Source: an uncultured Bacteroidota bacterium
GTDB lineage: Bacteria > Bacteroidota > Bacteroidia > Chitinophagales > Chitinophagaceae
Direction of reading: 5' to 3'
Assembly (NCBI GenBank): GCA_903905065.1
Contig: CAIVEW010000061.1
Coordinates: 1 to 64,000, forward strand
DNA length: 64,000 nt
Both the position numbers and the translations under genes were made by a program. The stretch's first letter is position 1, and each line of letters begins with the position of its first letter. The notes beneath the pieces were generated by a model. It was not told the DNA's origin and made no database searches. It worked only from the letters and a program-made list of their open reading frames with translations. Positions 18,254-29,446 of the stretch are shown here, in pieces.

Positions 18254-19264
18254 ATGAAAAAACTTATTACTCTTTCCATTCTGCTGGCAGCACAGATCGC
18301 GGCAAACGCACAGACAGCCAGGGTACAGGTGATCCACAATTGCGCAGATGGCGCTGCGGATACCGTTGATGTATACCTCAATGGCACTAAATTACTCAGT
18401 AGCTTTGCTTTCCGCACAGCAACCCCGTTTATTGATGCACCGGCGGGTGTTCCGCTAACCCTGGGCATAGCGCCCAACCACAGTGCCAGTGTAATGGATA
18501 CTATCTACAGCACTACGGTAACACTTACCGCTTCCGGTGAGTATGTGGTAGTGGCAGATGGTATTGTGAGCGCTTCAGGATATACACCCGGTAGTGCTAC
18601 AGCGCCATTTCGGCTAAGTGTTTATGACATGGCAAGAGAAACCGCTACAACATCGGGCCAGACCGATGTGCTGGTAGAGCATGGTGCAACAGACGCACCT
18701 ACCGTTGAAGTGAAAGCAGGCAGTAGCGTGTTGGTTAGCGGCCTCTCATTCGGAAACTTCTGCAGCACAGGGTACTTGAATTTGCCCACTTCAAATGATA
18801 CACTTTATGTAACCAACAGCACCGGCTCCAGCATATTATATACCTATTCCGCACCACTGGCCGCGCTAAGTCTTGCAGATTCGGCAATTACGGTACTGGC
18901 TTCGGGATTCGTGGATTCTGCAGCAAACAGCAACCGGCCTTCATTTGGTTTGTGGGTTGCATTAAGAGAGGGAGGCGCATTGATACCACTACCAAAACTA
19001 GAAAATCCTACATCCGTAGAAAGTGTGACGAATAACAGTGCGGCACAAGTTTTCCCTAATCCGGTAAGCGATTATCTAAATATTGTATCTGCCGTGGATC
19101 TGTCCCGCATCTCCATCATGGATATCACTGGCAGAGTAGTAACCCAACTAAACGGCAATAAACAGGCACGCATTGATGTAAGTAATTTGTCTCAGGGAAT
19201 TTACATGGTAAGGCTGGAAACAATAAATGGTGAAGTAAGCACTAAAAAAATAATTAAAGAATAG
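18254..19264 (+). CDS. DUF4397 domain secreted protein with T9SS type A tail
   Basis: 336 aa. Signal peptide MKKLITLSILLAAQIAANAQ. 'ARVQVIHNCADGAADTVDVY' and 'LNGTKLLSSFAFRTATPF' are typical of the DUF4397 beta-sandwich; a second copy starts near 'TDVLVEHGATDAPTVEV'. The C-terminus is a T9SS type A sorting domain ('AQVFPNPVSDYLNIVS' ... 'GIYMVRLETINGEVSTKKI'). Surface or secreted; no enzymatic role is known for the family. It is the only gene between the two 159-bp repeats and is followed by a strong terminator. Confidence 0.9.
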   Translation: MKKLITLSILLAAQIAANAQTARVQVIHNCADGAADTVDVYLNGTKLLSSFAFRTATPFIDAPAGVPLTLGIAPNHSASVMDTIYSTTVTLTASGEYVVVADGIVSASGYTPGSATAPFRLSVYDMARETATTSGQTDVLVEHGATDAPTVEVKAGSSVLVSGLSFGNFCSTGYLNLPTSNDTLYVTNSTGSSILYTYSAPLAALSLADSAITVLASGFVDSAANSNRPSFGLWVALREGGALIPLPKLENPTSVESVTNNSAAQVFPNPVSDYLNIVSAVDLSRISIMDITGRVVTQLNGNKQARIDVSNLSQGIYMVRLETINGEVSTKKIIKE

Positions 19265-19287
19265 TATTCTATTAGCTCCCCATTTCG

Positions 19288-19329
19288 AAAAAGCCACCCC
19301 TTGCTTGCAAAAAGGGGTGGCTTTTTTTC
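19288..19329 (+). terminator. Terminator after the DUF4397 gene
   Basis: AAGCCACCCCTT pairs with AAGGGGTGGCTT around a 9-10 nt loop, followed by a run of seven T. Confidence 0.85.
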
Positions 19330-19438
19330 CGTCCACGGCTAGTCTGAGCCCTTCGCGGCAGTGGCAATACTAAGTATACTTTGAACACACTATAGCATAG
19401 ATTAGAAAAATCAGTAGTAGTGCGACTTCCAGACGATG

Positions 19439-19461
19439 TTTATTGCAAGTTTTAATGCAAG
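19439..19461 (+). repeat. Degenerate arm-like tandem motif
   Basis: It reads TTTATTGCAAG then TTTTAATGCAAG, a decayed version of the TTTAGTGCGAG tandem found at the ends of both 159-bp repeats and next to the tRNA gene. It sits 92 nt from the tRNA fragment, and the arm at the intact tRNA lies at nearly the same distance. Confidence 0.6.
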
Positions 19462-19480
19462 TAAAAAGGTAATCATAAAA

Positions 19481-19509
19481 AAAGAGCTGCATTTTTGGTG
19501 CAACTCTTT
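19481..19509 (-). terminator. Terminator-like hairpin beside the tRNA fragment
   Basis: AAAGAGCTGCA (19481-19491) and TGCAACTCTTT (19499-19509) form a stem with one wobble in the minus-strand RNA, followed there by a T run. It stands in the same place relative to the tRNA fragment as the hairpin at 28521-28546 does to the intact tRNA. Confidence 0.65.
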
Positions 19510-19530
19510 AATTTTCAGCGCTTTGCACTT

Positions 19531-19573
19531 GTGGTCCCACTCGGGCTTGAACCAAGGACCCCCTGATTATGAG
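19531..19573 (-). repeat. Copy of the 3' part of tRNA-CAT, probable attachment-site remnant
   Basis: 43 nt match 28568-28610 (anticodon loop to acceptor end of the tRNA) with one mismatch. The 5' part of the tRNA is absent, so it cannot make a tRNA. Such 3' duplications are typical after integration of an element into a tRNA gene. Confidence 0.88.
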
Positions 19574-19590
19574 GTGGCCTTTGATACTAT

Positions 19591-19749
19591 CTTTTTGATG
19601 CGAAATTGTCAATATTGATATTGCTCAAATGCTTGTCTGGCTTGCAATGTAGCTGATTTTTAAGGGGAAAACTATCATTCTGATGCCTTAAAGCAAAGTT
19701 TAACCAGGAGACAGTTCGGAAGCAACTTTAGTGCGAGTTTTAGTGCGAG
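19591..19749 (+). repeat. 159-bp direct repeat, copy B
   Basis: Same length as copy A; starts 18 nt after the tRNA fragment. It contains palindrome variant TGTCAATATTGATA (19607-19620) and ends with TAGTGCGAG-TTTTAGTGCGAG (19729-19749). Confidence 0.9.
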
Positions 19750-19828
19750 AGATTTAAGTCAGGTGTTAATATTACCCTATCTTCTTTAGCGTGGCGGAGG
19801 CCGTTTCTCTCCCTTTTGCTAACCTACA

Positions 19829-19844
19829 ATGTCAATATTGACAT
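19829..19844. repeat. Palindrome copy 3
   Basis: ATGTCAATATTGACAT, a perfect 16-bp palindrome, between the convergent DUF4397 gene and the T9SS paralog at 19893. Confidence 0.85.
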
Positions 19845-19892
19845 CAACTGAGATAATACTTAATGTCTTAGCGATCTTAGTCATGTCCTGCT

Positions 19893-21437
19893 TTATTCCA
19901 CAATCACTTTCCCTGACTGCACCCCGCTATCCGTTATGAATTGGTATAAGTATATGCCAGGCGTATACCTTGATACGTTGAAGCTCGCAGTAGAACTGTT
20001 TTGCAATGCTTGCTCGTCCATTACTCGACCAGTAACGTCAATTAGCTTAATCCTCACATTGTTTAGCAGGGAATACTGAAAATTAAGCATTCTGGTCGCA
20101 GGGTTGGGATAAACCGTCAACTCTCCGTATGATAGGCTGGGCGAGGTGGGTACTCTCGTTGTCAGGCACCCATCCGTCACACACCCATTGCTATCTGTGC
20201 CTACAAGCCACATATCCTGGACTTCGCGCCATGCAGGAATAGTATCGTTAAAAGCAGCACCTGTAAATACAAGATTGCCATTGGGCATTTCCACCACATC
20301 CCTGAAGTAAGAGTTGTGCATGGAATCGCTCAGATAATAGTTGCTCCACATAATATCGCCATTCTTACTCACTTTTGCCGCCCATGCCAGGATGTAACCG
20401 AAAGTATAAGTTCCAGCGTCGCCCTCTACCAGGTAATTGCCGTCGTGCAGCGCTATGGCTTTAAAAATATACCTGTGGCCTAAAGCATAGTCGTAGGGAA
20501 ACCTTGTTATCCATTGTATGTGAAAATTAGTATCAAGGTGGGCAAAGTAATCGGGGAAATTATTGTAGTCGGACGGATCAGAAGTTTCAAATGTATCGAT
20601 CTCTCCAAAATGGAAATAGCCGCCATTAATGTCGTTGAAAATCTGCCCCCCTCCCCCATACTTACTGCCGTAAACCGTATCTTTTATAACATTGCCCATG
20701 CCATCGAGCACCATAAACCAGACCGAGTAGCCAAGATAACTTATCGAGCCATCCCACTCGGTATGTTCACTGCCGGCTCCTGCAAGTATTCTTCCGCCGC
20801 CCAGGGTATCAATGGTAAATATTGTTGCGGGTTCTGCGGTATCTTTTTGATAGGTATGGGTCCACACGGTATCGCCCATGCTGTCTGTGCGTATAATGTA
20901 TGCAGGATAGTTGGAAGGGGTATTTAAACTGTGAGAGCCACATAAAAGGTACCCTTTATCAGGCATTACGCTTACGTCGCCGAAGCTGTCAAAGTATATT
21001 GAGGTATCAGTATAAGTTTTAAGGAAAACAGTACCCCCGGCCTCATTCAACTTTAAAAGGCCTGCTGAGCTATGCAGGTACCCGGTCGAAGGATTAGGCC
21101 ACTGTTCGTTGAACGGTAAAATATACCCTCCGCCGGATAAATGTCGCATTTGCCCCGCGTCTCCGATGTACAGCCTTTTCCCGCTAATGGTTATGTCATT
21201 TTTACCCAATTGGTTTTGTCCATCTGCGCTGATGGTCATGTCAAATAATGATAGCTGCACACCCTTTTGCGACCATGCTACTACAAAATAATTACTGTCC
21301 GGCTTGTTATAGAGGCATAGCCCCCAATCTATAGTACTATCATTGTCAAATAAACTCTGAAAATACTGTGCAAAAGACGTGTGTGGCGCTGCTAAAAGCA
21401 GCGCCACACACGCGAGACCAATCATCACCTTTTTCAT
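19893..21437 (-). CDS. T9SS type A secreted protein, paralog 1 of a three-gene family
   Basis: 514 aa. Signal peptide MKKVMIGLACVALLLAAPH...FAQ, then 'YFQSLFDNDSTIDWGLCLY'. The body contains propeller-like strands ('YIIRTDSMGDTVWTHTYQKD', 'GYFHFGEIDT', 'MPNGNLVFTGAAFND') and a conserved 'GTDSNGCV' before the sorting domain 'LTVYPNPATRMLNFQYSL' ... 'PGIYLYQFITDSGVQSGKV'. Similar over its full length to the proteins at 25017 and 26570. It is predicted to be displayed or released through T9SS; ligand unknown. The upstream frameshifted gene ends 27 nt before it on the same strand. A 15-bp perfect hairpin lies in its signal-peptide codons. Confidence 0.9.
   Translation of the reverse strand: MKKVMIGLACVALLLAAPHTSFAQYFQSLFDNDSTIDWGLCLYNKPDSNYFVVAWSQKGVQLSLFDMTISADGQNQLGKNDITISGKRLYIGDAGQMRHLSGGGYILPFNEQWPNPSTGYLHSSAGLLKLNEAGGTVFLKTYTDTSIYFDSFGDVSVMPDKGYLLCGSHSLNTPSNYPAYIIRTDSMGDTVWTHTYQKDTAEPATIFTIDTLGGGRILAGAGSEHTEWDGSISYLGYSVWFMVLDGMGNVIKDTVYGSKYGGGGQIFNDINGGYFHFGEIDTFETSDPSDYNNFPDYFAHLDTNFHIQWITRFPYDYALGHRYIFKAIALHDGNYLVEGDAGTYTFGYILAWAAKVSKNGDIMWSNYYLSDSMHNSYFRDVVEMPNGNLVFTGAAFNDTIPAWREVQDMWLVGTDSNGCVTDGCLTTRVPTSPSLSYGELTVYPNPATRMLNFQYSLLNNVRIKLIDVTGRVMDEQALQNSSTASFNVSRYTPGIYLYQFITDSGVQSGKVIVE
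21378..21412 (-). promoter_or_regulatory. Hairpin within signal-peptide codons, paralog 1
   Basis: CGTGTGTGGCGCTGC (21378-21392) and its exact reverse complement (21398-21412) enclose a 5-nt loop. In the mRNA this lies at nucleotides 26-60 of the coding sequence. The same structure with different sequence is present at the same place in paralogs 2 and 3. Confidence 0.8.
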
Positions 21438-21464
21438 AATCCTGTTTTTAAAAACTAATACTCT

Positions 21465-22741
21465 TTATTCTATTATCACTTTGCCGGTTTGCCTTTTGCC
21501 GCCGGCATTCACTTCATACAGGTAAACACCCGGCGTATACTTGGATACGTCAAATATTGCCGATGAGCTGTTTTGCAATACCTGCTGGTCTATGGTTCTG
21601 CCCGCCACATCGGTCAGTTTTATGGTGATATTTTCGCAAAGCGAATACTGGAAGTTCAGTATTTGTGATGCAGGGATAGGGTACACGGTAAACTCCGGCT
21701 GCGTTGTTTTTATTGTGCTGCGGGCTCCCGTATCTCCTGTACCGCTGCCACCGCTCTTATTACCAGTCCTGCTGTCACTGCGGCGCCTTTCGCAACCCAA
21801 TTGCTGCCGTCGAATTTCATTACCGTAACCTTATAGCTATTAGCAGCATCTCCAAAAGCCACATAAGGTATCCCACTACCGTCTATGACTATGGATGTGT
21901 ATGCTACTTCTCCCGCTGTGAAGCCGGCACTGCCTACTGCCACCCAATTAGTGCCATTGTATTTCATTACGGTCGCTTTGTAGCCATTGCCCCAGTCGGA
22001 GTAAGCTACATATGGTGTGCCGCTGCTATCTATAGCTATAGATGTGTAGGCTGCTTCCCCTGCCGAGAAACCAGCGCTACCTACCGTTACCCAATTGATG
22101 CCATCGAACTTCATTACCGTTGCTTTTCCTAAAATGCCGCCCTCTCCGTAAACCACATAGGGTGTACCTCCGGTGTCTATGGCGATAGAGATGTCTAATG
22201 GCGTTCCAGCAGAAAAATTTGGAATACCAACTGTTACCCAACTGCCACCGTTGAATTTCATTACAGTGGCTTTATCGCCAGGGTAAAGACCTGCATAACT
22301 AATATAAGGCGTACCAATGCGGTCGATTGCTATCCATTTGTATCCTCGAACAGAGGTATCCGTGAATCCTGCACTGCCAACTATAACCCAACTACTGCCA
22401 TTGAATTTCATTACAGTAGCTTTTCCGCTATCACTCCCATCGGCATAAACCACATAAGGCGTTCCACTCCCGTCTATAGCAATTGAGGTAAGAACTGCGC
22501 TGTCTGAAAAACCTGCGCTCCCAACTGTGTTCCAACTGAGACCATTATATTTCATTACGGTAGCTTTATGGCCGTTCGCACCGTCCTGGTAAACAACATA
22601 AGGTGTACCTCCTGTATCTATAGCAATGGATGTAGAATTTGCCGCTCCTGCTGAGAAACCCGGGCTGCCAACCGGCAACCATGACTGTGCATGTGCAGAG
22701 AGCGTAAATAGTAAAAGTGTAGAGAAGAAAATGTTTTTCAT
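21465..22741 (-). pseudogene. Frameshifted T9SS repeat protein gene
   Basis: Two overlapping frames make up one gene. The first (22741 to 21710) has a signal peptide (MKNIFFSTLLLFTLSAHAQ) and six repeats of ~48 residues, each with 'WVTVGSAGFS', 'SIAIDxxGTPYVVY' and 'KATVMKFNG'; it then runs into 'LVIRAVAAVQEIREPAAQ' and stops. The -1 frame (to 21465) supplies a Gly/Ser/Thr linker and a good T9SS type A domain ('FTVYPIPASQILNFQYSL' ... 'PGVYLYEVNAGGKRQ'). The frames overlap at 21710-21800. Start at the ATG 22741 is chosen over the upstream TTG (22762) because it begins the signal peptide. No slippery heptamer was recognised, so mutation or sequencing error is more likely than programmed frameshifting. 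Confidence 0.75.
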
Positions 22742-23316
22742 GTATGGTGTATTATAGGTCAAAATAACAGAGTCATCCCTATAGGATTAGTAATTAAGCT
22801 CTTTTGCAAAAGTGAATATTATTTTTGGCATTTCACCGGTACATAAAGCTGATATATTGGAGCTTTTTAAACGGTATAATTTATACCAGGTGCGAATGTC
22901 AATATTGACATTCGCACTGGTCTCTAACACAATTGTCGGGCATAGTAAGGTTCTACAAAGGCTTGAGGGAAGACAAAAGCGCCTCTTATAGATACTAAAA
23001 TGAAAACCTTGAAAAATAAGTTTATAAATGTTTTGAAAATTCAAAAAGCATTTTTATCTTTAAGTTAGCTTAATGGAAACTCCTCTTTTTTTGTCTAGTT
23101 TTTTATTTTCTGGTTTGTGTACCCTTGCTTGGGTATTTTGATGAATTATTACCCTTAGTACAGATTTAAGCTATTAGCAAAGTATATTTTATTGGATTGA
23201 TGCAGAACAATTGCGTAGCTACTTTGGCTGCTTAGTTGTAAGCAAAAAATAAATTTACCCAAGGTTTAATACTTTTTATACGTCTATATAGTTATGAATA
23301 CATAAACCCGATTTCT
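22742..23316. other. 575-nt divergent region with the longest palindrome copy
   Basis: It separates a minus-strand and a plus-strand T9SS gene. It carries palindrome copy 4 (22891-22916); the rest is AT-rich with no ORF or RNA recognised. Confidence 0.6.
22891..22916. repeat. Palindrome copy 4, extended to 26 bp
   Basis: The core TGTCAATATTGACA is extended on both sides to a perfect 26-bp palindrome starting TGCGAATGTC; a further CCAG/CTGG pair follows after a one-base insertion on the left. It lies between divergent genes. Confidence 0.9.
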
Positions 23317-24639
23317 ATGAAAAAACTCTTCCTCACTTATTTTCTTTTTGCTCTTGTTTGTGGGGCACATGCGCAGGTTATCGTTACTGCCGTTGGCGGT
23401 GGGTTCGGCGGCGATGGTGGTCCCGCATTAGGCGCGGCCCTAGGAACACCTTTTGGATTAGCTCTTGATGACAGTGGCAATCTTTATATATGTGATGTGT
23501 CTGACCGTCGTATTCGCAAGGTAACTCCGGGCTATGGGGGCATTATTACTACTATTGCAGGCAACGGGACTATTGGTTATAGCGGAGACGGTGGCTTAGG
23601 AATATATGCACAAATAAATGGCGGTGTTGACGTTGCTGTTGACCGTCATGGCAATGTGTACATTGCTGATGCGGGTAACGGCTGTATCAGAAAAGTGACG
23701 CCAGAAGACACTATTACTACGATTGCTGGAACAGGAGTTGCCGGATATAATGGAGACAGTATACCTGCAACCGCAGCGCAACTAAATGGTCCAACCGGGA
23801 TTGCAGTAGACGGTATTGGTAACCTATATATCGCTGACGAATCAAATCACAGGATAAGAAAAGTAGATACCGCAGGTATCATCACTACTATTGCTGGTAC
23901 TGGTATGGCTGGATTCAGCCCCGATGGAAGCCGTGCAGACACGGCTAAATTAGATTCGCTTTATAGTTTAAGATTTGACAAGACTGGTAACTTGTTTTTT
24001 ACAGACAATATTCGCATACGTAAGATGGATACGGCTGGCATCATTACCACAGTAGCTGGAATCGGTATTGAAGGATTTAGTGGAGATAGCGGCATGGCGA
24101 CCGCTGCTGAAATAGAAATTGACGCAATATCAATAGATAGTTCGGGGAATATATATATGGCGGAAGGGGCAACTAACCGTGTGCGCAAAATAACTACTGA
24201 CGGTATTGTCAATACCATAGCCGGTACCGGCTTTACAGGCTATTCGGGAGACTATGGCAACCCATTGCTTGCTGAGTTTCGAGGGGTGTCCGGTATAGTG
24301 GTTAGTACGACGGGAGATATATTTATCAGCGATGAAGGCAATCAAGTGGTTCGGCTAATAACAAGGCATCCGTTAAGCATAAATAAATATTCGTATGTAC
24401 AGGAAAATTTAAATGTTTTTCCGAATCCAAGCAACAGTATTTGCACTATACAGGTAAGCACTCCTGCAAGCGAACAGGCCGAAATCACAATTACAAATAT
24501 TACCGGAACAGAAGTGTGCAAATTTGTTACTGCCACTAATCAACCATATAGCATTAAACTGGATTGGCCTGCGGGAATTTATATTATCAATGCAGCGACG
24601 GAACATGAGCATTTCACAGAGAAACTAATCGTACAATAA
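23317..24639 (+). CDS. NHL-repeat secreted protein with T9SS type A tail
   Basis: 440 aa. Signal peptide MKKLFLTYFLFALVCGAHAQ. Six or so NHL blades follow, each with 'ITTIAGTG', a Gly-Asp loop, 'GIAVDGIGNLYIAD' and 'HRIRKVDTAG'. The C-terminus is a T9SS type A domain ('LNVFPNPSNSICTIQVS' ... 'AGIYIINAATEHEHFTEKL'). NHL propellers bind proteins or glycans; the ligand here is unknown. Followed after 30 nt by a small secreted gene on the same strand. Confidence 0.9.
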   Translation: MKKLFLTYFLFALVCGAHAQVIVTAVGGGFGGDGGPALGAALGTPFGLALDDSGNLYICDVSDRRIRKVTPGYGGIITTIAGNGTIGYSGDGGLGIYAQINGGVDVAVDRHGNVYIADAGNGCIRKVTPEDTITTIAGTGVAGYNGDSIPATAAQLNGPTGIAVDGIGNLYIADESNHRIRKVDTAGIITTIAGTGMAGFSPDGSRADTAKLDSLYSLRFDKTGNLFFTDNIRIRKMDTAGIITTVAGIGIEGFSGDSGMATAAEIEIDAISIDSSGNIYMAEGATNRVRKITTDGIVNTIAGTGFTGYSGDYGNPLLAEFRGVSGIVVSTTGDIFISDEGNQVVRLITRHPLSINKYSYVQENLNVFPNPSNSICTIQVSTPASEQAEITITNITGTEVCKFVTATNQPYSIKLDWPAGIYIINAATEHEHFTEKLIVQ

Positions 24640-24669
24640 TAATCTTTCAATCTCCAAAATCACACACTC

Positions 24670-24930
24670 ATGAAAAAAATAACCCTGTTAGCCTTTGGGC
24701 TTATTGTGGTTGCCTATTGTTACGGTCAGGACAGCACTGCCACGATCAATAGCAGCTGGAAGCGATACGCCGCAGATACCAGCCGCACTTACCAGCAAAT
24801 CGTAACCACCTGTGACAGTTTGTTTGCCCTTGCAGGTTATCCTGTTTTTCCGGACACTTCATCTTCTTCCCAGGGAAGCGGTGTAGAACAGGAGAGCGAG
24901 GATGGCAAGCCTTTTTTCTCTCGATGCTAA
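24670..24930 (+). CDS. Small secreted protein of unknown function
   Basis: 86 aa: signal peptide MKKITLLAFGLIVVAYCYGQ, a short helix-prone part ('SSWKRYAADTSRTYQQIVTT'), then a Ser/Glu-rich tail ending 'GKPFFSRC'. No T9SS tail and no family recognised. Just after its stop comes palindrome copy 5. A decayed copy of its last codons (reading GRFSPFC then stop) seems to lie at about 19790-19812, also just before a palindrome. Confidence 0.65.
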   Translation: MKKITLLAFGLIVVAYCYGQDSTATINSSWKRYAADTSRTYQQIVTTCDSLFALAGYPVFPDTSSSSQGSGVEQESEDGKPFFSRC

Positions 24931-24936
24931 ACTAAA

Positions 24937-24952
24937 ATGTCGATATTGACAT
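24937..24952. repeat. Palindrome copy 5
   Basis: ATGTCGATATTGACAT, one substitution from the consensus, between convergent genes ending at 24930 (+) and 25017 (-). Confidence 0.8.
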
Positions 24953-25016
24953 CGAATGCAGATAACCGCTAATGTCATTGCCGCAGAATGCAGTGGTCAT
25001 CATCATAGCATTCATT

Positions 25017-26558
25017 TTATTCCATTATTACTTTCCCCGACTGCACACCGCTATCTGTTATGAACTGGTACAAGTATATCCCAGGCGCATACATTGATAC
25101 ATCAAAACTGATTGCAGAACTGTTTTGCAGTACCTGCTTATCCATAAGTCTGCCGGTAACATCTGTGATTTTAATCGTGACACTGGTTTGCTGAGAGTAT
25201 TGGAAATTCAGCACAGTCGAAGCCGGATTAGGATAAACAGTCACGCTCTCACTGATCCTACCTAACTGCGGTGAGGTCACCTTCGTCGTCAGGCACCCTT
25301 CCATCACACACCCATTACTATCAGTGCCCACTATCCACACATCCAGCACAGTATGCCATGAAGGAAGAGTATCATTATAAGATGCACCTGTAAATACAAG
25401 GTCTCCATTGGGCATTTCCACCATATCCCTGAAATAGTTTTCATGCAAAGTATCGCTTTCATAATACTGGTCCCATAAAATATTACCATTCCTATCTACC
25501 TTCGAGGCCCAGCCGAAAGCATTAGGCAGATAATTGGTAAGCGATATACCAACAACAACGTAGCTACTGTCTCTTAATTGCCTTACTATAACTTTATCTC
25601 TATGTCCTTGGGGTGTATAACTAAATGAAGTGATCCAGGTAATACGAAAATTGGTATCCAAATGGGCGATATAAGAAGGGAAGTTTTCTATATCAGATGC
25701 ATTGGAGGTATATAGCGAATCAAAATTGCCGATATGTATATAGCCGCCATTCTTATCTTTATAAATTGCTCCCCCTCCTGCAAAATCACTACCATAAAGA
25801 GTGTCCTTTAAGATGTTCCCCATGCTATCCAAAACTAAAAACCAAGGTGTGTTATGAAAATAATTTGTCGAACCGTCCCACGCATTATACGCACTCATCG
25901 CTCCAACCACAATTCGCCCATCAGATAACGGAATAACGGTATTTACAGTTACCCATTGCGCCGTGTCTTTTTGATAGGTATGCGTCCATAAAGTATCACC
26001 CATGCTGTCAGTGCGTATGATATATCCAGGATACACTGAAGCCGAATTTACAGCATGTACACCACCAGCTATATATCCTCCGTCCAGCATTAAATTAATT
26101 GCATAGAGCGCGTCAAAATAAACTGATGTATCCGTAAAGGTTTTTAAAAAAACAGTATCCCCAGCAGCATCAAACTTCATAATGCCGGCAGCGCTATAAA
26201 CATGGCTTGCTGTAGGATTTGGCCATTGCTTATTTAACGGTAAAACATAGCCATTAGATAATTGTATCATTTCTCCAGGGTTGCCAGGTCCAATATAACC
26301 GCCATTTTTAACAAAATTTTTTTTACTTAGCACAAGACTTCCATCACTACTGATGGTCATATCAAATGCTGAGAATTGTTCTGTAGTTTCATAAAAAGAT
26401 GATCCTACAATAAAATAACTACTATCTGGCCTGTTCCGTATACACCAGCCCCAATCCTGAGTAGTATCGTTGTCATAGAGTTTCTCGAAATATTGAGCTT
26501 GGCTAAACACTGGCAACGCTATTAGCGTTGCCAGTGTTATTACTATTATCTTTTTCAT
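25017..26558 (-). CDS. T9SS type A secreted protein, paralog 2
   Basis: 513 aa. Signal peptide MKKIIVITLATLIALPVFSQ, then 'YFEKLYDNDTTQDWGWCI'. The propeller-like body shares 'YIIRTDSMGDTLWTHTYQKD', 'HENYFRDMVEMPNGDLVFTG' and 'GTDSNGCV' with paralog 1. The sorting domain ends 'GIYLYQFITDSGVQSGKV', almost identical to paralog 1. It starts 11 nt after the stop of paralog 3, so the two are probably in one transcript. A 14-bp perfect hairpin lies in the signal-peptide codons. Confidence 0.9.
   Translation of the reverse strand: MKKIIVITLATLIALPVFSQAQYFEKLYDNDTTQDWGWCIRNRPDSSYFIVGSSFYETTEQFSAFDMTISSDGSLVLSKKNFVKNGGYIGPGNPGEMIQLSNGYVLPLNKQWPNPTASHVYSAAGIMKFDAAGDTVFLKTFTDTSVYFDALYAINLMLDGGYIAGGVHAVNSASVYPGYIIRTDSMGDTLWTHTYQKDTAQWVTVNTVIPLSDGRIVVGAMSAYNAWDGSTNYFHNTPWFLVLDSMGNILKDTLYGSDFAGGGAIYKDKNGGYIHIGNFDSLYTSNASDIENFPSYIAHLDTNFRITWITSFSYTPQGHRDKVIVRQLRDSSYVVVGISLTNYLPNAFGWASKVDRNGNILWDQYYESDTLHENYFRDMVEMPNGDLVFTGASYNDTLPSWHTVLDVWIVGTDSNGCVMEGCLTTKVTSPQLGRISESVTVYPNPASTVLNFQYSQQTSVTIKITDVTGRLMDKQVLQNSSAISFDVSMYAPGIYLYQFITDSGVQSGKVIME
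26506..26538 (-). promoter_or_regulatory. Hairpin within signal-peptide codons, paralog 2
   Basis: AACACTGGCAACGC (26506-26519) and its exact reverse complement (26525-26538) enclose a 5-nt loop, at nucleotides 21-53 of the coding sequence. Confidence 0.8.
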
Positions 26559-26569
26559 ACTATTTAATT

Positions 26570-28108
26570 TTACTCCACTATTACTTTCCCCGACTGTGTG
26601 CTGCCATCGGTTATGAACTGGTACAGGTATATTCCTGGCGCATACCTTGAAACATTAAAGCTGGTAGCAGCACTATTTTGCAACCTTTGTTCATCCATCA
26701 GTCTCCCGGTAATATCGGTGATCTTAATCGTCACATTGCTTTGTAAGGAATATTGAAAATTGAGCATGCTTCTTGCAGGGTTAGGATAAACAAGTACTCC
26801 TGAATTTGTTGGTCGTATATTATTCACCCTCGTGGGTGCGCACCATACATTCTCGCAGCCATTACTGTCTGTACTTACTAACCATACATCCTCAGTTTGG
26901 TGCCATGTAGGCAGAGTATCGTTCATTGTTGTGCCGGTAAATATTAAGCTGCCGTCGGGCCGCTCGGCCACATCTCTAAGTGCGGCATACTTAGCTGTGT
27001 CACTTAGATAGTACTTGTTCCATACAATCTCTCCATTTCTGTTCACTTTTGCACCCCAGCCGTAACTACCAGCCGAAGATGTTACCAGTTGATCACCTAC
27101 TGCAACATAACTGCTGTCACTTAATTGCCGTATCATCCAGATGGCTCTATGCTCATCTGTAGGGGTGTAAGGAAATTCCGTGATCCATGTCATACGAAAA
27201 TTACTATCAACGTGCGCAATAAAGTTTGGGAAATTCCGTATATCATCAGGGTTAGAGGCATTTACCGAATCATAACTTCCCCATATTACATACCCGCCGT
27301 TTTTGTCCGGCAATATGTTGCCACCGCCCATACTGTAAACTGTATCGCTGATAATATTGCCCGCACTGTCCAACACCATGAACCAGGCTGCATCAGAATA
27401 ATACGCATCAGGCCCGGGATTTACTAAACGGCTGCTTGTCGCTCCAACTATTATCCGCCCGTCAGCCAAAGGAATGACATTGTCTATTTGAACCAAGTCA
27501 GTGGTGTCGAGTTGGTAAGTCCGGGTCCATAGTGTATCCCCCATGCTGTCGGTACGTGCGATAAGGCCCTTGTAATATGAAGAAGAATTCAATTCCCGTG
27601 TTCCACCTGCTATATACCCGCCACCAGGCATTATTGCGCAGCAGATCATTCCTTCAAAATAGACAGAAGTATCAGTAAATGTCTTTAAAAATACGGTATC
27701 GCCAACAGCATTGTATTTCACTAATCCAGCACTTGCTCTGTTATAGCTGCCGTAAAAAACATTTATGGATAATGGCGATAAATACCCTCCCCCGGGCAAC
27801 AGTATGATGCCTCCGTTGGCTCCGCCATACAGGGATGCGATGCTATCCGTGACAATACGTTCATTTAATATGGTACTGCCATCAGCAGATATTTTCATAT
27901 TAACTAATGCCCAGTAGCCGTGGTCAATGTTACTTATGCCCGCCTCCGTCTTGACAAAATAACTGCCATCAGATAGTACGAAAATATCCATCCCCCAATC
28001 ATAGCTGGAGTCAATATCGTACAGCTTTTGGAAATATTGACCAAAAGATTGGTGCGCTGCTGTTAGTAACAGCAGCACACCAATTATGCTTATTATTTTT
28101 CGTTTCAT
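26570..28108 (-). CDS. T9SS type A secreted protein, paralog 3
   Basis: 512 aa. Signal peptide MKRKIISIIGVLLLLTAAHQ...FGQ, then 'YFQKLYDIDSSYDWGMDIF'. The body is more divergent than that of paralogs 1 and 2 but keeps 'IARTDSMGDTLWTRTYQLD', 'RPDGSLIFTGTTMND' and 'STDSNGCE'. The tail is 'VLVYPNPARSMLNFQYSL' ... 'GIYLYQFITDGSTQSGKV'. Its stop is 11 nt before the start of paralog 2; 18 nt upstream lies a truncated fourth copy. A 17-bp near-perfect hairpin is in its signal-peptide codons. Confidence 0.9.
   Translation of the reverse strand: MKRKIISIIGVLLLLTAAHQSFGQYFQKLYDIDSSYDWGMDIFVLSDGSYFVKTEAGISNIDHGYWALVNMKISADGSTILNERIVTDSIASLYGGANGGIILLPGGGYLSPLSINVFYGSYNRASAGLVKYNAVGDTVFLKTFTDTSVYFEGMICCAIMPGGGYIAGGTRELNSSSYYKGLIARTDSMGDTLWTRTYQLDTTDLVQIDNVIPLADGRIIVGATSSRLVNPGPDAYYSDAAWFMVLDSAGNIISDTVYSMGGGNILPDKNGGYVIWGSYDSVNASNPDDIRNFPNFIAHVDSNFRMTWITEFPYTPTDEHRAIWMIRQLSDSSYVAVGDQLVTSSAGSYGWGAKVNRNGEIVWNKYYLSDTAKYAALRDVAERPDGSLIFTGTTMNDTLPTWHQTEDVWLVSTDSNGCENVWCAPTRVNNIRPTNSGVLVYPNPARSMLNFQYSLQSNVTIKITDITGRLMDEQRLQNSAATSFNVSRYAPGIYLYQFITDGSTQSGKVIVE
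28048..28084 (-). promoter_or_regulatory. Hairpin within signal-peptide codons, paralog 3
   Basis: ATTGGTGCGCTGCTGTT (28048-28064) pairs with 28068-28084 around a 3-nt loop; the single mismatch at DNA level becomes a G-U wobble in the mRNA. Nucleotides 25-61 of the coding sequence. Confidence 0.8.
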
Positions 28109-28126
28109 AAATCCACATTTAAAAAA

Positions 28127-28306
28127 CTACTCCACTATTACTTTACCAGATTGCGTTTTACCATTCGTTATCACCTGATACAGGTAGATACCGGGTGTAT
28201 AAGATGCTACATTAAAGCTGGCAAGGCTACTGTTTTGTAAGGTTTGCTCATCCATTTTACGGCCTATCACATGATACCAGTATTTTTTATCAGTGTCCTT
28301 TAGCAT
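28127..28306 (-). pseudogene. Truncated fourth paralog: T9SS sorting domain only
   Basis: A 59-codon frame starts 'MLKDTDKKYWYHVIGRKMDE' and continues as the last ~45 residues of the paralog sorting domain ('LQNSSLASFNVASYTPGIYL' ... 'GKTQSGKV'). The first ~12 residues do not match the paralogs, so the rest of the gene was lost and another sequence was joined on. It has no signal peptide and is unlikely to be a working secreted protein. Confidence 0.75.
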
Positions 28307-28445
28307 TTTTTACTTCTTTAATCAAATCTACAAAACCTAAATTACTCACCATCTTTTGAAGTCTTTTAACTCAGTTGGTTACTGGCGAATTAAATTCGCC
28401 TTGAGAGCACCATGTAAGACTACTAAAAGCACAATTCGCTGCTCA

Positions 28446-28498
28446 TATCAATATTGACACTGCAATCAAAGGCAACAATAGTGCGAGTTTTAGTGCGG
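28446..28498 (+). repeat. Palindrome copy 6 plus arm-like tandem motif
   Basis: TATCAATATTGACA (28446-28459, one substitution) is followed by TAGTGCGAG-TTTTAGTGCGGG (28479-28498), 70 nt from the tRNA. This is the same pair of elements found at the ends of repeats A and B. Confidence 0.75.
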
Positions 28499-28520
28499 GA
28501 GGAAATCTATAAATGTAAAA

Positions 28521-28546
28521 AGCAGCTACAAATGAATGTAACTGCT
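28521..28546 (-). terminator. Probable terminator of the tRNA transcript
   Basis: AGCAGCTACA (28521-28530) and TGTAACTGCT (28537-28546) form a 10-bp stem with one G-U wobble in the minus-strand RNA, followed by a T run. It lies 22 nt beyond the tRNA 3' end. Confidence 0.7.
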
Positions 28547-28568
28547 TGTTTACCAATCGTTTAGACTG

Positions 28569-28642
28569 TGGTCCCACTCGGGTTTGAACCAAGGACCCCC
28601 TGATTATGAGTCAGGTGCTCTAACCAACTGAGCTATAGGACC
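28569..28642 (-). tRNA. tRNA-Met (CAT anticodon)
   Basis: 74 nt that fold as a cloverleaf: acceptor GGTCCTA / TGGGACC with one G-U pair, D arm TAGCTCAGTTGGTTAGAGC, anticodon loop CTCATAA (anticodon at 28606-28608), T arm with GGTTCAAAC, discriminator A. CCA is not encoded. The D-arm and variable region resemble elongator tRNA-Met more than initiator tRNA; a lysidine-modified tRNA-Ile cannot be excluded by eye. Its 3' part is duplicated at 19531-19573. Confidence 0.93.
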
Positions 28643-28735
28643 GAGACGTTTTACCGTCAAACCCCAACGTTAATCGGGGGCTGCAAATGTAGGCGATTTT
28701 TCTAAAAAAGGAAAAAGGATTTTAACGCGAGGGTC

Positions 28736-28768
28736 AGATTTGTCAACTTTTGAAAAGTTGACAAATCT
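28736..28768. repeat. Inverted repeat with 16-bp perfect arms and 1-nt centre
   Basis: The arm AGATTTGTCAACTTTT at 28736-28751 is mirrored exactly at 28753-28768. It lies between the tRNA and the HAD gene, 18 nt upstream of that gene's -7 box, so it could be an operator or a dispersed palindrome. Confidence 0.8.
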
Positions 28769-28786
28769 ATACGTATCATTTCCGCC

Positions 28787-28794
28787 TACTTTTG
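28787..28794 (+). promoter_or_regulatory. -7 promoter box of the HAD gene
   Basis: TACTTTTG matches TAnnTTTG and the ATG follows after 4 nt (28799), implying a leaderless transcript. No well-spaced -33 box. Confidence 0.6.
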
Positions 28795-28798
28795 CAGC

Positions 28799-29446
28799 AT
28801 GATAAAGGGCATAAAACACATCATTTTTGACCTCGGCGGGGTGATACTGAATATTGACTACAAGCTCACAGAAAAAGCATTCATAGAGGCGGGCATCACT
28901 AACTTCCCGGAGCTTTACTCACAACTGCGGCAGACCGACCTGTTTGATAAATTTGAGGTGGGCGGTATTTCGGCTGCGGAGTTTGTGGGCGAATTGCAAA
29001 AGGCTGCACCTACGGCCATTACCGAGGCACAGGTACTGCAGGCCTGGAACGCTATGATACTCGACTACCCGCTGCGCCGCCTGCAGGTGCTGCAGCAGTT
29101 ACGGCTGCATTACGATCTGTTCCTGCTCAGCAATACCAATGAGATCCATGAGGCGACTTTCAATGATGTGCTGATGCGCGATCGCGGTATTCCTAACATT
29201 GGTGTATTTTTTGACCGGGTGTACCTCTCTCACCGGGTGGGCCTGCGCAAACCAAACCCCGAGATCTTCATGCGGGTAATGGATGAAAGCGGACTGAAAC
29301 CAGAACACACACTATTCATAGACGACAGCCCCCAACATGTGGCTGCTGCCAAAGAACTGGGTATTCAGACTATTTTTCTTGAAAAAGGAATGACGATAGA
29401 AGAAGATGTGTTTACCCCCCTGCCCCCTAAAGGGGGAGTTGCCTGA
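28799..29446 (+). CDS. HAD family hydrolase (HAD-IA, YihX-like phosphatase)
   Basis: 215 aa. Motif I 'IIFDLGGVIL' carries the nucleophile Asp of the D-L-G-G-V type, motif II is 'FLLSNTN', motif III is the Lys in 'VGLRKPNPEIF', motif IV 'TLFIDDSPQHV'. The helical cap fits subfamily IA (YihX/epoxide-hydrolase-like N-terminal phosphatases), which dephosphorylate small sugar phosphates; the substrate here is unknown. Cytoplasmic, monocistronic. The last codons run into a C-rich inverted repeat (CCCCCT...AGGGGG). Confidence 0.9.
   Translation: MIKGIKHIIFDLGGVILNIDYKLTEKAFIEAGITNFPELYSQLRQTDLFDKFEVGGISAAEFVGELQKAAPTAITEAQVLQAWNAMILDYPLRRLQVLQQLRLHYDLFLLSNTNEIHEATFNDVLMRDRGIPNIGVFFDRVYLSHRVGLRKPNPEIFMRVMDESGLKPEHTLFIDDSPQHVAAAKELGIQTIFLEKGMTIEEDVFTPLPPKGGVA

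Follow-up and report, generated by a model that had tools for sequence, protein, structure and literature searches.

Hairpins in the signal-peptide codons of three gene families of one Chitinophagaceae genus: a probable leaky terminator of the upstream gene

In cellulolytic Clostridia, operon-internal intrinsic terminators set the gene ratios of ABC importers, with a measured termination of 20.7-96.1% (excerpts of PMC9045158). In Escherichia coli, terminators inside open reading frames are kept closed by translation, as described for rsxC, narY and a pyrL reporter (excerpts of PMC5021804). RNA 3' ends internal to open reading frames have also been reported in E. coli, and some were ascribed to intrinsic termination (excerpts of PMC7815308). 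No terminator encoding a signal peptide was encountered among the literature matches listed (titles and abstract openings of open-licence papers).

The window analyzed here, a stretch of 64,000 nucleotides from an uncultured Chitinophagaceae bacterium, carries three paralogous genes with a hairpin in the first codons:

19893..21437, minus strand: paralog 1, 514 aa, with a type IX secretion C-terminal sorting domain (Por_Secre_tail)
21370..21377, minus strand: U-rich stretch 3' of the paralog 1 stem, TCTTTTGC, the S-F-A codons
21378..21412, minus strand: paralog 1 hairpin, 16 bp (17 with an outer G-U), 3-nt loop, coding nt 26-60, z -5.82
21465..21800, minus strand: 3' part (sorting-domain end) of the gene upstream of paralog 1, its stop 27 nt 5' of the paralog 1 ATG
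25017..26558, minus strand: paralog 2, 513 aa, Por_Secre_tail, starting 11 nt past the paralog 3 stop
26506..26538, minus strand: paralog 2 hairpin, 15 bp, 3-nt loop, coding nt 21-53, z -5.44
26570..28108, minus strand: paralog 3, 512 aa, Por_Secre_tail
28040..28047, minus strand: U-rich stretch 3' of the paralog 3 stem, CTTTTGGT, the S-F-G codons
28048..28084, minus strand: paralog 3 hairpin, 17 bp including one U-G pair, 3-nt loop, coding nt 25-61, z -7.00
28130..28270, minus strand: C-terminal remnant of the gene upstream of paralog 3, its stop 18 nt 5' of the paralog 3 ATG

An intact, 1320-aa version of the gene upstream of paralog 3 is present in genome G004. The three palindromes were already located by the first-pass annotation, which also placed them correctly within the coding sequences; they stand on the minus strand, the coding one for all three genes. 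Its dimensions for paralog 3 (17 bp, 3-nt loop) hold, while paralogs 1 and 2 had been given as 15 and 14 bp with 5-nt loops and are longer because one further inner pair closes. The T run noted behind the stems of paralogs 1 and 3 is present as well, and doubles as signal-peptidase-site codons (S-F-A/G), with T-rich synonyms favored. Behind the paralog 2 stem, there is no T run (TAGCCAAG).

The hairpins are genuine and lie well outside chance expectation. For each of the three, 0/200 dinucleotide shuffles were as stable, and for each of 10 family members, among them the three paralogs, 0/400 codon resamplings with a fixed peptide attained the arm observed. The window and 20 stretches of the genome (464 kb, 385 ORFs) contain nine in-ORF hairpins of at least 12 bp (at most two G-U pairs, loop 3-9), three of which are those of the paralogs. 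Arms longer than 10 bp occur in 4/117 signal-peptide-like genes of this sample, the three paralogs and one lipoprotein; the earlier remark that other secreted-protein genes lack such a structure was, hence, nearly right, with one exception. Shuffles, codon resampling and genome sample counts thus exclude chance or codon bias as the origin. A curated Rfam RNA is ruled out too: at gathering score, four loci with such hairpins gave no match, and the sole match in window positions 19000-29000 is a tRNA at 28569-28642, with none at the hairpins.

Nor do secreted or coupled genes in general carry such hairpins. In a survey of 971 genes from 60 stretches, a stem-loop at E ≤ -18 was present in 1/60 coupled and 5/220 uncoupled signal-peptide genes. 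The majority of the low-energy entries resemble long, imperfect folds, the near-perfect early stems being those of L062 and L070. Outside the span of this survey, L096 has a 16-bp stem with two G-U pairs in its hydrophobic stretch, 116 nt from the upstream gene.

What accompanies the hairpin is a close upstream gene end. In the type IX family, such an end on the same strand precedes 12/12 genes with a hairpin versus 0/4 without. All 12 hairpins lie about 20-60 nt past the upstream stop, that is, shortly after it, as in an intrinsic terminator; in three of these settings, just a remnant or a short ORF is kept upstream. Homologs without the pairing, which the first reading would have taken as a refutation, were found (4/16 family members), all four without a close upstream gene. 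Long homologs of the large G031-type upstream gene were found in G031, G032 and G029 alone, and all three are coupled; therefore, this family offers no separated gene pair for a separation test. Y1-type transposase genes lie near two homologs. A scan of genome contigs returned only the two nearest relatives.

Two further genes of the same genus, encoding a lipoprotein and an M1 aminopeptidase, have a hairpin of this kind at the same place in their signal-peptide codons. The lipoprotein hairpin, at the junction with MbnP, is tied to a close upstream gene end in 17/17 orthologs (the upstream end being resolved in 16), about 15-22 nt past the upstream stop, versus 0/10 paralogs; 30 loci were fetched for this comparison and 27 read. 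For M1, within the genus and G157, the hairpin is present in 24/25 coupled genes versus 0/12 uncoupled genes (Fisher p 7e-9, ignoring relatedness). An order-wide M1 search matched 99/119 genomes; among the 30 loci read, the hairpin was seen only in G157 and in G000 itself, which rules out a taxonomically wider element. Beyond the genus, five M1 loci (L211, L214, L218, L221 and L226) are coupled without having the hairpin.

The FKBP-M1 junction provides the separated pairs. At the seven loci where FKBP immediately precedes M1 but the two are uncoupled, a similar, terminator-like hairpin of 10-14 bp follows the FKBP stop by 20-26 nt and stands 101-156 nt before the M1 start, in most cases with a T run behind it. 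L175, where the upstream gene is of the OmpA type, and L176, which ends in the same way as L175, were left out of this count. The intergenic hairpin at the FKBP end in G029 shares the core TGGTATTTGC..AGCAARTACCA with the embedded hairpins, and the uncoupled clade, ten genomes in all, branches from within the genomes that bear the hairpin (98/96).

These loci bear on the export timing proposed by the first-pass annotation. A signal-peptide or export-timing element of secreted proteins would fit the location of the hairpin, within signal-peptide codons in all three families, but is scarcely credible: same-genus orthologs with ordinary signal peptides and no close upstream gene have no hairpin, and where FKBP and M1 stand apart, the hairpin is found between the genes, behind FKBP.

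Pairing is kept while the sequence changes. In the type IX family, two-sided changes are seen in 14/16 stem pairs, with a score of 0.708 versus a shuffled mean of 0.284, which bears out the covariation suspected from the three paralogs. This alignment comprises 10 distinct hairpin-bearing sequences; G004 and G001, equal to paralog 3 over the first 90 nt, were omitted, as were G005, G002, G024 and G022b, which have no strong hairpin. In the lipoprotein family (14/17 sequences, L143, L147 and L149 being left out), 15/16 pairs show two-sided changes. Scored symmetrically on the coding strand, the stems of the three families contain 586 Watson-Crick, 31 G-T, 3 A-C and 4 other pairs. Since G-T pairs so outnumber A-C pairs on this strand, the mRNA is what is kept; together with the two-sided changes, this supports a truly covarying element at the RNA level. 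The palindrome correction offered earlier as a mutational alternative is disfavored by this bias and, as the whole story, ruled out.

A broader DNA-level origin, by template-switching correction or as a mobile palindromic cassette copied between genes with no selection on RNA, would account for the sharing of the core GGTATTTGC..GCAAATACC among M1, an FKBP-type gene (G023, G003) and an unrelated G019 gene, and for its closely similar form between genes in G029. It is very improbable, given the strand bias and the distribution of the core: across 35 genomes it occurs at 26 places, 23 of them M1 genes, and therefore does not qualify as a dispersed repeat. Most of the 24 carrying genomes have one place, and G023 and G003 have two. 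A palindromic repeat of the REP or MITE type, expected in many near-identical copies per genome, is rejected on this count, and the diverse stems of the type IX and lipoprotein families also speak against it.

The hairpin is probably a leaky intrinsic terminator that serves the upstream gene from within the signal-peptide codons of the next one, although termination itself is predicted from sequence. The stems are stable and GC-containing (14-18 bp, z to -7.0), and in stem size, spacing from the stop and number of U's they match 68 hairpins (arm of at least 10) in same-strand gaps of the lineage. The mean number of T in 8 nt is 4.0, 4.5 and 3.6 versus 3.8 in these gap hairpins; the tracts are short, and paralog 2 lacks a run. 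Codon choice after the stem favors T-rich synonyms: the Ala after the M1 stem is GCT in 24/24 coupled genes versus 3/8 readable uncoupled ones (L129 taken as coupled; 5/13 hairpin-less M1 rows unreadable), and the Ser after the stem is TCT in 7/7 type IX genes with S-[FY]-[AG]-Q.

Several observations count against a terminator. A generic terminator scan found 9 sites versus 8.2 in shuffles, no excess, and among the three window stems called a coding-strand site only at paralog 3. No hairpin accompanies 59/60 coupled signal-peptide genes of the survey at E ≤ -18, the coupled lipoprotein paralogs L151 and L159, the coupled second M1 copy of G012 or the five coupled M1 loci outside the genus, and in G017, which has the MbnP gene without the lipoprotein, there is none in the following 80 nt. 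Conversely, G007 keeps a perfect 16-bp hairpin with only a short ORF upstream, and a G019 gene 170 nt from its upstream neighbor carries such a hairpin. Finally, the position of the hairpin varies no more when measured from the start codon than when measured from the upstream stop.

This constancy could reflect a translational-coupling device, in which terminating or scanning ribosomes meet a hairpin directly ahead of the downstream start codon, are held over the AUG and re-initiate more readily. Across three unrelated families, the hairpin begins at coding nt 20-37, which, from the extent of a ribosome footprint, would be just past a ribosome on the AUG, and it is tied to close gene pairs; the lineage probably makes little use of Shine-Dalgarno sites. 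Such a device is nevertheless unlikely: most coupled genes do without the hairpin, and in the seven separated FKBP-M1 loci, it is too far ahead of the M1 start to hold a ribosome on that AUG.

A 3'-end stabilizer or processing site, blocking 3' exonucleases and protecting the upstream mRNA, would suit the long stems with weak U-tracts, and the same junction link fits. We consider it quite improbable, as the T-rich synonym bias past the stem and the T runs behind most intergenic versions point to termination as well, even if the two readings are hard to part on sequence.

Under the terminator reading, the RNA hairpin would belong to the 3' end of the gene immediately upstream and lie inside signal-peptide codons because the next gene starts so close; the stem would code for the hydrophobic core and the U-rich stretch for the cleavage region. 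RNA polymerase may stop there part of the time, or the hairpin may cap and protect the upstream mRNA, and the downstream secreted protein would be made in a smaller amount, from read-through transcripts. More speculatively, a ribosome starting on the downstream gene might open the stem and increase read-through. Among the four functions first proposed, premature termination has the strongest support, though as a property of the place where the upstream gene ends; the hairpin may also control translation of the downstream gene. The first reading had missed the role of the upstream gene's end and the design common to unrelated genes.

Only tentatively can a fuller, dual-use element be proposed, in which one gene's terminator is the next gene's signal-peptide code (stem as hydrophobic core, U-tract as cleavage site), in a register that never pairs second codon positions together. 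Re-initiation on the overlapping start codon would open the stem, so that secreted-protein output would depend on ribosomes keeping pace with RNA polymerase, and hairpin signal peptides would have been copied between genes.

Loosely constrained signal-peptide codons can carry a conserved RNA signal associated with a neighboring gene, and within this one genus they do so in at least three families that are unrelated. The sequence of a signal peptide is usually explained by protein needs; here, RNA pairing dictates it. The M1 signal peptide has a near-fixed WYLLxANT core, where most signal peptides would let the sequence drift. Terminator finders that skip coding sequence would miss such sites, at which the overlap of regulation and coding can be tested directly.

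As in the Clostridia importers, a stable stem-loop directly follows an upstream operon gene, often with few U's, and a lower downstream transcript is expected; in the excerpts of that report, however, the terminators are intergenic with measured termination, whereas the present stems are in downstream signal-peptide codons and known from sequence (PMC9045158). With the ORF-internal 3' ends of E. coli, the likeness is an RNA 3' end, predicted in the present case, inside an open reading frame; the excerpts of that paper contain no hairpin in signal-peptide codons, and the term "signal peptide" is absent from its text (PMC7815308). In rsxC, narY and the pyrL reporter, as here, the terminator hairpin lies in translated RNA, where an advancing ribosome can block its formation; according to the excerpts of that study, those sites are within operon genes, while the present hairpins mark a gene junction, are conserved by covariation and recur in three unrelated families (PMC5021804).

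The first-pass annotation had placed the three palindromes of the window correctly: all lie within the signal-peptide codons of three minus-strand paralogs, whose products have 512-514 aa and a type IX sorting domain. Folded as mRNA, the stem of paralog 1 measures 16 bp, or 17 bp if an outer G-U is counted, those of paralogs 2 and 3 measure 15 and 17 bp, and all loops have 3 nt. Of the earlier arms (15, 14 and 17 bp) and loops (5, 5 and 3 nt), only those of paralog 3 are thus retained. The folding z-scores are -5.82, -5.44 and -7.00, and none of 200 shuffles was equally stable. When the peptide was kept fixed and the codons were resampled synonymously, the observed arm was reached in 0/400 cases for each of 10 type IX family members. 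Across 464 kb (385 ORFs) of the same genome, nine in-ORF hairpins of at least 12 bp were found, three of them the paralog hairpins.

Type IX homologs were matched in 12 of 60 relatives (E <= 1e-30; the window's own genome counted), and one further fragment, in genome G033, emerged when the 35 genomes of the genus were searched with a profile. The 5' ends of 16 genes were examined, window paralogs included: 12 carry a stem of at least 14 bp in the same codons, the G004 and G001 genes being identical to paralog 3 across the hairpin region. Only weak stem remnants are present in G005 and G002, and the hairpin is absent from these codons in the most distant genes (G024 and G022b). The proposal that pairing is held though the sequences differ is borne out by the homolog comparison that had been called for, on 10 distinct stems. 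Two-sided changes occur at 14 of the 16 pairs, 85.6% of the cells are paired vs. 64.3% in shuffles, and the covariation score is 0.708 vs. 0.284, counts that are underestimated because stems with longer loops are out of register in the alignment. Genes for Y1-type (IS200-like) transposases lie near two homologs (L085:2172-2885 and L086:8971-9516).

All 12 hairpin-bearing type IX genes start at most 35 nt from the stop of an upstream gene on the same strand, or overlap that stop; none of the four hairpin-less genes starts so close to one. The upstream genes belong to more than one family. For the large gene of the G031 type, long homologs were seen in G031, G032 and G029 alone; the upstream gene is a short ORF in G007, and in G022 the contig has only the end of the upstream gene. 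Paralog 3 and the G011 gene are preceded by a gene remnant, which in the window is a 3' end (28130-28270) with a tRNA gene behind it (28569-28642, minus strand; whole region 28130-28642); a whole 1320-aa gene stands upstream of the paralog-3 counterpart in G004. The gene upstream of paralog 1 (window 21465-22762) is split over two frames, with overlapping ORFs at 21710-22762 and 21465-21800, which reflects either a frameshift or an assembly error.

The decisive comparison for the link with the upstream gene is provided by an M1 aminopeptidase (PF01433), whose hairpin was noticed in the neighbouring gene of a retrieved locus (L081). All 36 places found in the genus were examined. The hairpin is present at 23, and all 23 gene starts fall in the range from 11 nt before to 45 nt past the point where an upstream ORF ends. 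Coupled genes, which start close to or overlap this end, carry it in 24 of 25 cases, including one from another genus (G157), and only the second M1 copy of G012 lacks it; uncoupled genes carry it in 0 of 12 (Fisher p 7e-9, relatedness ignored). Seven uncoupled loci are still downstream of an FKBP gene, at 125-176 nt, and all seven gaps contain a hairpin of 10-14 bp beginning 20-26 nt past the FKBP stop, most with a T run behind. The one in G029 reads TGGTATTTGC-ATC-AGCAAGTACCA, then TTTTTGTTTTTGG, and a coupled gene has TGGTATTTGC-TCTC-AGCAAATACCA, then CATTTGCTTTT; the remaining six FKBP-end hairpins differ in sequence from that of G029. In G009 and G019, a hairpin also follows the different gene found upstream (OmpA-type in G009). 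No like hairpin was seen at the uncoupled second copies L166 and L168, and an upstream ORF is absent from the stretch of L170.

In the M1 tree (46 rows; short fragments; midpoint root), the ten uncoupled genomes of the genus group together as a single clade (98/96) that is nested among those with the hairpin, with four label changes vs. 15.7 in shuffles. From this nesting, the embedded hairpin looks like the older state within the genus. The design is lineage-restricted: it is absent from 28 of 30 M1 loci examined from the order search, and five loci outside the genus (L211, L214, L218, L221 and L226) lack it although an upstream ORF ends no more than 50 nt away.

A third family, found in a genome survey, is a lipoprotein (L062, classed from its signal sequence; no Pfam match) whose gene start overlaps the end of an MbnP-type gene (PF20243). 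Its stem-loop lies at the same place in 17/17 orthologs (-19.2 to -34.1 kcal/mol; upstream gene end resolved in 16) and in 0/10 paralogs (0 to -14.8), two of which nevertheless begin 11 and 42 nt past an upstream ORF. Covariation affects 15 of 16 pairs (score 0.724 vs. 0.347; 14 of the 17 sequences aligned). Against the link with the upstream gene, no hairpin was found within 80 nt of the MbnP gene in G017, where the lipoprotein is missing. Coupling by itself is insufficient, as 59 of 60 coupled signal-peptide genes in the survey have no stem-loop at E <= -18.

The reference for gene-end hairpins was taken from same-strand gaps after genes in 60 unselected stretches (arm 10 or more; n = 68). 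Their arms average 12.9 bp, they lie a median of 26 nt past the stop, and the following 8 nt contain 3.8 T on average. Embedded stems (arm 11 or more) resemble them in size and distance, with matching U counts of 4.0, 4.5 and 3.6. Furthermore, post-stem codons favour T: Ala is GCT in 24/24 coupled M1 genes vs. 3/8 readable uncoupled ones (genome 0.24), and Ser is TCT in all seven type IX genes having S-[FY]-[AG]-Q (genome 0.18). The G002 gene, without a strong hairpin, uses TCA for that Ser. Speaking against a terminator, a generic scan for terminators across the region called paralog 3 on the coding strand, the paralog 2 palindrome solely on the opposite strand and paralog 1 on neither; its sites were not above shuffles (9 vs. 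8.2).

With G-T and A-C mismatches given equal scores during stem extension, the three families gave 586 Watson-Crick, 31 G-T, 3 A-C and 4 other pairs (G-T:A-C of 5:0 in type IX, 2:1 in M1 and 24:2 in the lipoprotein, which carries most of the weight; related sequences are not independent). Such a G-T excess is predicted by selection on the coding-strand RNA, not by a strand-symmetric DNA process. All 46 stems of at least 11 bp use a register in which no two second codon positions face each other, so that both arms can encode hydrophobic or small residues.

Hairpin signal peptides also occur in other genes. In G023 and G003, the FKBP-type gene of the same operon has the M1 hairpin signal peptide WYLLVANTTFA (L165:764-853, L167:850-939), as if duplicated between genes. 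In G019 (L181:1497-1529), a gene without Pfam match contains CATTGGTATTTGCC-AATAC-GGCAAATACCAATG in its signal-peptide codons even though its upstream neighbour, which is followed by a hairpin too, lies 170 nt away; this case counts against the link with a close upstream gene end. Of the 30 ortholog loci examined, this is the one with such a stem, and the core is shared with the M1 hairpin, which points to some copying of hairpin signal peptides between genes. On the reverse strand of L070, a gene (ATG ~7079) whose start overlaps the upstream gene end (MSVKKVIAKHFSCPAYLPSML) has a 13-bp hairpin inside. Two further palindromes of the window were recorded. The perfect 28-nt intergenic one at 22890-22917, GTGCGAATGTCAATATTGACATTCGCAC, is perhaps a regulator site; its core TGTCAATATTGACA and a close variant are repeated in the window and other stretches. 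The other, at 28736-28768, AGATTTGTCAACTTTT-A-AAAAGTTGACAAATCT, is nearly repeated in L060, with C instead of T, and is possibly a repeat family member.

The hairpins are a real, conserved, RNA-level element. It would be of a known functional kind, an operon-internal terminator or gene-end hairpin, in an unusual place. Most likely, the upstream gene would be transcribed to its end and the stem would then form; some polymerases would halt in the U-rich stretch behind it, and the remaining ones would go on to transcribe the downstream gene, in which the hairpin codes for the signal peptide. More speculatively, read-through could respond to translation, because the downstream start is at or near the upstream stop; ribosomes keeping pace with the polymerase are reported to block terminator hairpin formation (PMC5021804). 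Among the titles and abstract openings listed in searches of open-licence papers, none showed a terminator-encoded signal peptide. For the intergenic stems of Clostridium ABC-importer operons, many with few U, a termination of 20.7-96.1%, setting the gene ratios, is reported (PMC9045158). Those figures belong to the Clostridium stems, which lie between genes, whereas the hairpins described here lie within signal-peptide codons.
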